Assembly (NCBI GenBank): GCA_012729095.1
Contig: JAAYDU010000069.1
Location: 1 to 43,226 of the forward strand
DNA from: Methanobacteriota archaeon
GTDB taxonomy: Archaea > Thermoplasmatota > Thermoplasmata > Methanomassiliicoccales > UBA472
Length of the DNA stretch: 43,226 nucleotides
Direction of reading: 5' to 3'
Shown here: positions 31,534 through 34,927 of the stretch, piece by piece
Position numbering within the stretch: position 1 is the first letter of the stretch
Layout of the letters: the number at the start of each line of letters is the position of its first letter
The notes under the pieces: generated by a model
Seen by the model: only the letters and a program-made list of their open reading frames with translations
What the model was told of the DNA's origin: nothing
Database searches by the model: none
Position numbers and translations under genes: made by a program

Positions 31534-31594
31534 CGTTATCAGCCATGATATCCGGGGAACGGGAGTTATATTATTGCCAGAAGGTACGCATCTC

Positions 31595-31954
31595 ATGGCC
31601 AAGGACGTCCTGAACATGTCAAGGCTGCTGGCGGACGAGTATTCCGGCAGGATCCTGAGCCTCACCTTCACCCAGCCCCGTTCGGTACAGGAGATATGCG
31701 CCCTCTCCGGAATACCAATAGCGGTCGCCTATCGCCGCGTGACATCACTGGAGGCCGTCGGTCTTGTCAAATGCTGCCGCACAGACGTCTCATCCAACGG
31801 CAAGAGATGCAAATATTACATGTGCCAGGTGGACGCTGCCAGACTGACGTTCAAGGAAGGCCGCTTCGAGGTGGAGATAGAATGGAAGGACCGCTGCGGG
31901 GACATGGCGGCCCACGTTCACGAACGAACGGCGGAACAATATTTATCCAAGTAA
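31595..31954 (+). CDS. Winged-helix transcriptional regulator (first of tandem pair)
   Basis: The 119-residue protein has a helix-turn-helix core SVQEICALSGIPIAVAYRRV at about 31-50, then EAVGLVKC, typical of an ArsR/winged-helix fold, and a small strand-rich C-terminal domain (KYYMCQVDAARLTF). ATG 31595 lies about 26 bp after a TTATATTA box (31566-31573), so the transcript is probably leaderless and independent of the ATPase gene. It is clearly paralogous to the next gene. Confidence 0.8.
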   Translation: MAKDVLNMSRLLADEYSGRILSLTFTQPRSVQEICALSGIPIAVAYRRVTSLEAVGLVKCCRTDVSSNGKRCKYYMCQVDAARLTFKEGRFEVEIEWKDRCGDMAAHVHERTAEQYLSK

Positions 31955-31972
31955 TCCTATGTAAGCGTCCAG

Positions 31973-32341
31973 ATGGGGAACAGCGACCTGCTCGGCAAGT
32001 CCCGCCTTCTGACGGACGAGTATGCGGTCAAGATATTGATGGCCACGGTACGTTCGCCCCGCAGCGCCCAGCAGATATCGGGGCAGTTCGGCATACCCAT
32101 AGCCGCCTGCTACCGGCGCATACGCGACCTGGAAATGGCCGGGCTCATCCGTTGCACGGAGAGGCGCCTATCCAGACAAGGAAAGCGCGTTTGCTACTAT
32201 CAGTCGCGGGTCAGGACGGCCGCTCTGCAGTACGAGAACGGCCGTCTGAGGGTCCGCTTCACAATGCTGGACGGGTCCGATGACAACGACTGGCAAGATG
32301 TGGAGCTGGGTTCCGACCGCGACCCGGACGACGGAAGATGA
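31973..32341 (+). CDS. Winged-helix transcriptional regulator (second of tandem pair)
   Basis: The 122-residue protein repeats the layout of its upstream neighbour: SRLLTDEYAVKIL, then SAQQISGQFGIPIAACYRRI, EMAGLIRCTERRLS, and a short strand-rich C terminus. The recognition-helix region differs (Q-F-G and C-Y-R-R-I-R-D), so the DNA target may differ too. Its own TATA-like box (31938-31946) overlaps the end of the upstream gene and gives a very short leader. Confidence 0.8.
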   Translation: MGNSDLLGKSRLLTDEYAVKILMATVRSPRSAQQISGQFGIPIAACYRRIRDLEMAGLIRCTERRLSRQGKRVCYYQSRVRTAALQYENGRLRVRFTMLDGSDDNDWQDVELGSDRDPDDGR

Positions 32342-33364: not shown

Positions 33365-33402
33365 CACTGGCTACCGTTCGTGGCCAGTGCTTTTCCTCTT
33401 TT
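33365..33402 (+). terminator. Hairpin plus T-tract after coiled-coil gene
   Basis: CACTGGC (33365-33371) and GCCAGTG (33383-33389) form a perfect 7-bp stem with an 11-base loop. TTTT-CCTC-TTTTT follows. It separates the coiled-coil gene from the next TATA box at 33420. Confidence 0.6.
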
Positions 33403-33419
33403 TCAGAAAAATGGTAAAC

Positions 33420-33428
33420 TATATATAT
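33420..33428 (+). promoter_or_regulatory. Strong TATA box between coiled-coil gene and SRP54
   Basis: TATATATAT lies 156 bp before the SRP54 start, far too early for a leaderless SRP54 transcript. It predicts transcription starting near 33447-33451, just at the candidate structured RNA, and follows directly after a terminator-like hairpin. Confidence 0.55.
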
Positions 33429-33446
33429 CGTCGAAAAGATAGTAGT

Positions 33447-33524
33447 GTTCGGGAAGGTCTGGGCTGGTTTTCAGAGTGCATCCCATCCCTTCTGACAGGA
33501 CTGGTCCTTCCCAAACCCCTTTTT
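33447..33524 (+). ncRNA. Candidate structured small RNA upstream of SRP54
   Basis: This non-coding stretch lies about 25 bp after a strong TATA box and ends in a CCCC-TTTTT tract. GGGAAGG (33451-33457) pairs with CCTTCCC (33506-33512) and encloses a second helix, TCAGA (33471-33475) with TCTGA (33491-33495), so the whole could fold as one nested stem. SRP54 has its own weaker promoter-like element near 33543-33551. It is not long enough for SRP RNA, and I see no C/D box or tRNA fold. It may be a small regulatory RNA, or a 5' leader element of SRP54. Confidence 0.45.
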
Positions 33525-33583
33525 CCATATTTCTCGGAGCAAAGGTTATTAGAGTCCATTAGATTGTCAATGAAGGTTCGAAG

Positions 33584-34927
33584 ATGGTATTGGAAGGATT
33601 GGGCCAATCATTGAGGGACGTCCTGAAGAAGGTCGCCAACTCCAGCAACGTGGACGAGAAGCTCATCAAGGAGGTGTCCAAGGACATTCAGAGGGCCCTC
33701 CTGCAGGCCGACGTCAACGTCAAGATGGTCCTGGAGATCACCAAGGAGGTCGAGCGCAGGGCGCTCACCGAGAGACCCCCCGCCGGAAAGTCCGGAAGGG
33801 AGCATGTCATCAAGATCATCCACGATGAACTGGTCAAGATCCTTGGCGAGCAGCGTGCCTTGCCGATAGGGAAGCAGGTCATTATGATGGTCGGCCTGTA
33901 CGGACAGGGCAAAACCACCAGCTCCGGGAAGCTTGGACGGTACTTCCATAAGAAAGGGCTCAAGGTGGGGCTGATAGCCGCTGACGTTCACCGTCCCGCC
34001 GCGTACGACCAGCTGAAGCAGATAGGCGACAAGGTGGGCGTGCAGGTCTACGGTTCTCCGGGTGAAAGCTCGGCCGTGAGGATAGTGGAGGACGGGCTGA
34101 GGGAGTTCAGCAACTTGGACGTTATCATCATCGATACCTCCGGAAGGCACGCCCTGGAAGGGGACCTGATAGAGGAGATCAAGCAGGTGTCCAAGGTGGC
34201 CAAGCCCACGGAGAGGATACTAGTGCTGGACGCCAGCGTGGGGCAACAGGCCGGCCCGCAGGCCCAGGCCTTTCACGACGCCGTCGGCGTGACCTCCGTG
34301 ATCCTGACGAAAATGGATGGAACGGCCAAGGGCGGGGGGGCGCTGTCCGCCGTCTCCCGCACCAAGGCGGCCATCGTATTCATAGGGGTCGGGGAGCACC
34401 TGGAGGACCTGGACCCGTTCATTCCCACCCGTTTCATATCCCGCTTGCTGGGTATGGGAGACCTGCAGTCGTTGATGGAGACGGCCAAGGAGAGCATCAC
34501 CGAAGAGCAGGCCATGGAGACCACCCGGAAGATCATGTCCGGCAAGTTCTCACTCAAGGAGATGTACGAGCAGATGGAGATGCTCACCAGCATGGGACCT
34601 CTGAAGAAGCTCATGGGCATGCTTCCGGGCATGGGCGGCGGGCTGCAGGACAAGGTCAACGTCGAGGAGACGCAGGAACGCCTGCGCCGCTACCGCATCA
34701 TCATGGACTCCATGACCGAGGAGGAGATGGAGAACCCCAAGCTCATCAAGTCCTCCAGGGTCATACGCATAGCGCGCGGCTCCGGAATGGACGTCAAGCA
34801 TGTCAGGGAGCTGCTGCAGCAGTACAACAACTCCAAGAAGGCCGTGCGCGGCATGATGGGCAACCGCAAGCTGCGCAAGCAGATGATGAAGCAGATGCAG
34901 GGCGGTGGCCTGGAGGGGCTGCAATGA
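33584..34927 (+). CDS. srp54: Signal recognition particle protein SRP54
   Basis: SRP54 binds signal peptides and SRP RNA and delivers ribosomes to the membrane. The 447-residue protein has the N domain (1-90), the G domain with G1 GLYGQGKTT (104-112), DTSGRH, TKMDGTAKGG and GVGE, and a Met-rich M domain after about 295 (KLMGMLPGMGGG, RKQMMKQMQGG). G1 has Gln where most homologues have Ser, and G3 reads DTSGR rather than DTAGR; both are mild changes. The ATG may be leaderless. The stop overlaps the trmY start (ATGA, 34924-34927). Confidence 0.97.
   Translation: MVLEGLGQSLRDVLKKVANSSNVDEKLIKEVSKDIQRALLQADVNVKMVLEITKEVERRALTERPPAGKSGREHVIKIIHDELVKILGEQRALPIGKQVIMMVGLYGQGKTTSSGKLGRYFHKKGLKVGLIAADVHRPAAYDQLKQIGDKVGVQVYGSPGESSAVRIVEDGLREFSNLDVIIIDTSGRHALEGDLIEEIKQVSKVAKPTERILVLDASVGQQAGPQAQAFHDAVGVTSVILTKMDGTAKGGGALSAVSRTKAAIVFIGVGEHLEDLDPFIPTRFISRLLGMGDLQSLMETAKESITEEQAMETTRKIMSGKFSLKEMYEQMEMLTSMGPLKKLMGMLPGMGGGLQDKVNVEETQERLRRYRIIMDSMTEEEMENPKLIKSSRVIRIARGSGMDVKHVRELLQQYNNSKKAVRGMMGNRKLRKQMMKQMQGGGLEGLQ

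Follow-up and report, generated by a model that had tools for sequence, protein, structure and literature searches.

A conserved hairpin RNA upstream of srp54, with an invariant loop complementary to cdrS-like and ftsZ mRNAs, as a putative antisense regulator of archaeal cell division

Does the short interval between a coiled-coil gene and srp54 in this archaeal genome hold an RNA gene of its own and, if so, what would such an RNA do? The window, i.e., the whole stretch of DNA analysed, comprises 43,226 nt of the forward strand of contig JAAYDU010000069.1 (assembly GCA_012729095.1; its genome is designated G000). An initial annotation of the interval had proposed an independent RNA of about 80 nt, distinct from SRP RNA.

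An RNA gene in the interval upstream of srp54

The upstream coiled-coil gene (DUF7121) is followed by a terminator-like hairpin (33365–33389, + strand) and by CTTTTCC, and a TATA box (TATATATAT, 33420–33428, +), the putative sRNA promoter, lies further downstream, both as initially described. The predicted sRNA, ≈80 nt in length, spans positions 33447–33527 (+), where the T-tract and the distance from the TATA box serve to infer the ends; the CCCC-TTTTT 3' end (CCCCTTTTT, 33516–33524, +), also recognised beforehand, has the features of an archaeal T-tract terminator. Downstream and outside the RNA, srp54 (33584–34927, +, with the ATG at 33584; Pfam SRP54, E 1e-68) is preceded by a separate promoter-like element (AAAGGTTATTAGA, 33541–33553, +). 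This element, which had been correctly assigned to srp54, is kept in the window's genus as AAAGGTTAT(C/T)TA, at variable spacing from the sRNA T-tract. On the other side of the locus, two small winged-helix regulator genes were noted in tandem 5' of the coiled-coil gene (31574–32338).

The folding energy of the window RNA is unremarkable for its composition (−24.6 kcal/mol, z = −0.46), thus the case for a structure rests on comparison and not on energy. A hairpin on the opposite strand, slightly more stable (z −1.08), was rejected, the TATA box and the T-tract being on the + strand, and covariation was tallied on the + strand. Three helices are supported by covariation. In helix H1, GGGAA (33451–33455, +) pairs with TTCCC (33508–33512); in H2, GGGCTGG (33461–33467, +) pairs with CTGGTCC (33501–33507), with GC, AU, CG and UA types all represented, so that the 3' strands of H2 and H1 together occupy 33501–33512 (+). 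H3 is formed by TCAGA (33471–33475, +) and TCTGA (33491–33495, +), supported also by the alignment, and encloses an apical loop of 15 nt (GTGCATCCCATCCCT, 33476–33490, +), the proposed antisense seed, whose reverse complement is the target motif. The nested helices originally suggested differ slightly from these three; their segments are present as stated (GGGAAGG at 33451–33457 with CCTTCCC at 33506–33512, and TCAGA with TCTGA).

Compensatory changes in the stems, put forward by the initial annotation as a check, were observed on both sides in 16 of the 20 base pairs; double-change cells numbered 105, where shuffled alignments gave 29.8 ± 6.2 (0/500) and slid controls 5–28. It must be said that the alignment used was model-fitted and thus leans towards structure; it had 68 distinct rows, two of which are false matches (L365(−) and L191(−) in alignment A3), removed in alignment A4 that served for model R2. 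The raw MAFFT alignment (A1) misplaced the stems of one family, and model-based alignments were used instead.

A DNA search in 40 relatives plus the window's own genome was positive for the segment in 37 of these 41. Covariance model R1, built from 19 sequences, matches the window RNA at 33448–33522 (76.4 bits, E 2.4e-21) and found the RNA in 163/300 genomes of the class, covering 27 of 33 families (counted by hand), with no RNA detected by R1 in families f10, f14, f22, f30, f32 and f33 of this sample. Model R2 extended the RNA to 200/293 genomes of a phylum sample, other classes included, the weak matches possibly comprising false ones; all of the 20 matches outside the class that were read have the hairpin and the core loop, and most also carry a TATA-like element and finish in a T-rich stretch. 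Some second R1 matches within a genome are antisense target sites read backwards, e.g., G065:C1:133524 at the 3' end of a cdrS-like gene. Family f46 often has several sRNA-like copies or model matches per genome (e.g., L446–L449 and L494), and its sRNA loops run on into CCUCCUAG, an anti-Shine-Dalgarno-like sequence able to base-pair with the ribosome-binding site of ftsZ.

The loop core GAGUGCAUCCCAUCC (GAGTGCATCCCATCC) is identical in 70/70 sRNAs aligned from the class; in the same alignment the arms diverge, and in family f11 so does the 3' half of the loop. Outside the class a single loop variant, GAGCTCATCCC (L462), was found. On comparative grounds, the window element is a real, structured and strongly conserved RNA gene, uncatalogued before (not in Rfam).

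As for known kinds of RNA, no Rfam 15 family exceeded its gathering threshold on the RNA strand, and a weak match to snR40 was on the opposite strand, with 20.4 bits against a cut-off of 50. Archaeal SRP RNA (RF01857) gave no covariance-model match at the locus, the true one being found at G000:C22:4109-4420 (167.8 bits), in agreement with the early claim that the two differ; the only likeness is that the SRP54 partner protein is encoded next to the window RNA. That the RNA is an H/ACA or C/D guide for modification can practically be dismissed: size and hairpin shape would fit and an AAA follows H1 in the window, but the trinucleotide past H1 is not conserved as an ANA, neither C/D boxes (box C included) nor a kink-turn are visible by eye in alignment A3, the RNA strand is without an Rfam match, and conservation falls on an apical loop, not on an internal pocket.

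That the RNA acts in cis on srp54, as its leader or attenuator, is suggested by 79 of the 103 testable loci, where this gene lies no more than 600 nt downstream. Nevertheless, the other 24 loci have no srp54 there, so that the RNA is not always upstream of srp54, as a leader or riboswitch of this gene would have to be, and is predicted from sequence to be an independent gene, in line with the initial proposal. Moreover, the RNA is closed by its own T-tract, the promoter-like element of srp54 is conserved and variably spaced from it, several matches often occur per f46 genome, and we hold the leader hypothesis as highly improbable. Across 114 distinct loci a TATA-like motif is most frequent at −53 to −51 relative to the loop core; of 178 distinct hairpin loci, 142 have TTTT 20–60 nt past the core.

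Complementary sites near cdrS-like and ftsZ genes

The proposed role of the loop is absent from the initial annotation: read as its reverse complement, the loop recurs as a conserved site on cdrS-like and ftsZ mRNAs. With one mismatch at most, the loop 16-mer occurs in 41/41 genomes, as the sRNA plus, usually, one to three further copies per genome, while the reversed 16-mer used as control pattern had no occurrence in the same 41 genomes. The extra copies fall in recurring ortholog classes and are oriented so that the mRNA carries the reverse complement AAGGGATGGGATGCAC. An exact search for the site was positive in 66/300 genomes, nearly all from RNA-carrying families, with no match of the reversed control. 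Genome-wide ranking of targets was by pattern only and most perfect sites came from exact-pattern searches, thus their perfection is not independent evidence; likewise, since the genomes are related, counts of sites and RNAs are not independent events.

Class A sites are located 5–35 nt past the stop codon of a ribbon-helix-helix gene of ≈80 aa, ahead of its terminator; the best NCBIfam match of the encoded protein is CdrS (NF058555, E 1.7e-12), below the curated cut-off. Class B sites lie, in several families, between a two-domain ribbon-helix-helix-like gene and a gene identified as FtsZ by both Pfam and TIGR00065, and the class B' site of family f8 is immediately 5' of the start codon of the two-domain gene. 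Class C sites immediately precede the start of a small ORF whose function is unknown. Outside the class, in the large family f46, the site is in the spacer that follows a CdrS-like gene and directly precedes an ftsZ of ≈370 aa; this CdrS-like protein is homologous to the class A protein of the window's genome (33% identity, E 5e-16).

The window's genome itself has a perfect 16-nt class A site 9 nt past the stop of the CdrS-like gene (L082) and a class B site, GAGGGATGGGATGCAT, in the spacer between the ribbon-helix-helix gene and ftsZ (L386), with 14 Watson-Crick and two G-U pairs. Seven tubulin/FtsZ-family matches were counted in this genome (contigs C72, C19, C50, C12, C4 and C26), one of them being the sRNA-linked short form.

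Not all RNA-carrying families have such sites. In f9, f11 and most of f2, where the RNA is kept, no full-length site was found where looked for, some having half-sites (GGGATGGGA, GGGATGC), and no co-varying targets were found in the f9 and f11 genomes checked for them. Extra half-sites of the same two types were seen around or in place of target sites at L353, L355, L422, L423 and L330–L333, clustered as if several partial pairings were possible. Other occurrences are recorded here as observations. A small unknown ORF of ≈80 aa (L086, L088, L091, L107, L113, L141 and L338) has TTAGGGATGGGATGC or a close variant, once or twice, immediately before its start codon, and sites of this type often sit downstream of a palindrome-like TGTCNGAC...GTCGGAC; in two related genomes (L096 and L099), a one-mismatch site, AAGAGATGGGATGCAC, lies across what may be the start codon of an MFS transporter-like gene.

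RNA–RNA pairing or a DNA operator

Are these sites paired by the RNA, or do they represent a DNA motif that the sRNA gene happens to contain? Four signs point to RNA–RNA pairing, as far as it can be inferred from comparison of genomes. First, polarity and position: it is the mRNA strand that carries the sites, and they fall within UTRs and spacers. Second, co-evolution: the complementarity of the own sRNA with the own spacer between the ribbon-helix-helix gene and ftsZ is perfect over 26 nt in genome G110 and 30 nt in G163, both from methanogens, thus extending into lineage-specific stem sequence, and no other sRNA compared matches longer. Third, a second site: in 19/19 f46 genomes a second run of 9–11 nt (AACTACCAG and variants), complementary to the 5' arm of the sRNA, lies collinearly downstream, 4–13 nt before the GGAGG Shine-Dalgarno of ftsZ; 1.4% of shuffled targets reach 9 nt. 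Fourth, wobble: ten sites linked to ribbon-helix-helix genes depart from the 14-nt core by a single substitution, which in nine of them is A>G or C>T, so that a G-U pair is kept. If transitions hit all positions equally, the chance of 9/9 would be about (5/14)^9, or 1e-4, a figure that the kinship of the genomes raises.

Predicted duplex energies in the window's genome were also considered. Paired with the loop, the class A site (−44.0) beats every 60-nt stretch of the window except the RNA's own complement (next −36.5), and the class B duplex (−34.9) is among the top few against the same stretches. With the whole RNA, the ftsZ-leader duplex reaches −60.9 kcal/mol, only ≈2 sd from shuffled targets.

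The rival hypothesis is that the 16-mer is a DNA operator for ribbon-helix-helix regulators, by which CdrS-like proteins would control their own genes, the sRNA gene merely containing one copy. The sites do adjoin genes of DNA-binding ribbon-helix-helix proteins, and Haloferax CdrS is a DNA-binding regulator of division genes (PMC8406309). On the other hand, an operator would hardly be expected after stop codons and ahead of terminators, in constant mRNA-strand orientation opposite to that of the sRNA, or, within the sRNA, as an invariant loop flanked by covarying helices; nor does a DNA site call for complementarity reaching 26–30 nt into a lineage-specific stem, for a separate second site or for substitutions that keep G-U pairs. 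In addition, the Haloferax CdrS motif is symmetrical (PMC8406309), and the 16-mer is not. The operator accounts well for none of the four signs, and we regard it as very unlikely.

Proposed function and comparison with known systems

At the level of sequence we could demonstrate the RNA gene, its structure, the invariant loop, the conserved complementary sites and the lineage-matched extension of the pairing. A trans-acting antisense RNA should have a conserved structure with an unpaired seed, sites conserved among orthologs on mRNAs encoded elsewhere, and a transcription unit of its own. The first two are met; as to the third, the TATA box and the T-tract are conserved and no transcript data are available. 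We hold it very likely that the RNA is an antisense sRNA acting in trans on archaeal cell division throughout the phylum, with transcription, pairing in the cell and outcome being inferred.

According to the model we propose, the sRNA would be transcribed from its own TATA promoter and fold into a long hairpin displaying the unpaired 15-nt loop. The loop would then pair with the 3' UTR of cdrS-like ribbon-helix-helix mRNAs (class A) and with the leader between the ribbon-helix-helix gene and ftsZ (class B); in f46 it would pair in the spacer of the cdrS-ftsZ operon, with the 5' arm of the sRNA pairing just 5' of the ftsZ Shine-Dalgarno. Since the f46 pairing would fall at the ftsZ ribosome-binding site, translational repression is favoured, as with sRNA41 of Methanosarcina mazei (PMC5867862) and DinR of Klebsiella (PMC10907235); on the whole, repression of ftsZ translation is the outcome we would rather expect, though it is inferred. 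Where the site lies in the 3' UTR, pairing would more likely alter how stable the cdrS-like mRNA is. As a combined outcome, FtsZ and CdrS levels may be tuned together, and the RNA probably controls when cells divide, expression, pairing and direction of the effect being all inferred.

The same pairing could instead activate or stabilise the targets, e.g., if the leader were opened or the 3' end protected. Class A sites, at the mRNA 3' end and ahead of the terminator, are indeed where protection from exonucleases is plausible, but the second f46 site, 5' of the Shine-Dalgarno, occupies a position usually blocking initiation. Activation is therefore somewhat doubtful, although it cannot be set aside, and repression is retained as the preferred direction.

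Hairpins resembling the sRNA were also found in head-tail virus contigs (IMG/VR), in intergenic position inside virion-gene operons and with unrelated stems, sharing the same 25-nt loop segment, CTGTAGAGTGCATCCCATCCCTTCT, with the Methanomethylophilus-type sRNA (L212). In L515 (3990–4060) and L516, from the same kind of virus, the hairpin is 3' of the major head protein gene, and in L517 (1920–1995 as oriented) it lies between the genes for the terminase large subunit and the portal. Two further viral matches (L518 and L519) fall within coding sequence and were read as chance. It is conceivable, as a tentative hypothesis with no host assigned, that the viral hairpins mimic the host sRNA and take over FtsZ/CdrS control; if so, host division would be altered during infection by head-tail viruses of these archaea.

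If the proposed function holds, a loop constant throughout a phylum and matched to cdrS and ftsZ messages would give directly testable access to the question of how FtsZ levels are set in archaea, and the RNA family is ready for annotating the phylum, gut methanogens included. Control of division by sRNAs is known in bacteria, and none was found described for archaea in the literature searched.

Among archaeal systems, sRNA162, sRNA154 and sRNA41 of M. mazei are intergenic sRNAs base-pairing mRNAs in trans (PMC3510493, PMC5867862), sRNA41 masking ribosome-binding sites (PMC5867862), and binding of an sRNA to a 3' UTR has been reported in Sulfolobus (PMC3510493, PMC5867862). The M. mazei sRNAs are likewise archaeal and trans-acting, but have other targets. 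To our knowledge, no archaeal sRNA of this type has a phylum-invariant loop or cell-division targets.

The gene pair is the one of the haloarchaeal CdrS-FtsZ2 (CdrSL) network, and in f46 the genes are ordered as in the haloarchaeal cdrS-ftsZ2 operon (PMC7439475). There, CdrS controls cell division transcriptionally, as a protein on DNA (PMC7439475, PMC8406309); the passages found mention no RNA layer, and neither small RNA nor sRNA appears in them as a term.

The closest functional parallels are bacterial small RNAs having the ftsZ mRNA as target: DicF of Escherichia coli, encoded by a prophage (PMC5069750), and DinR of Klebsiella, which represses ftsZ by covering the ribosome-binding site in an Hfq-dependent manner (PMC10907235). 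Both are unrelated to the window RNA in sequence and structure, the latter being archaeal, phylum-wide, putatively seeded by its loop and linked also to cdrS.
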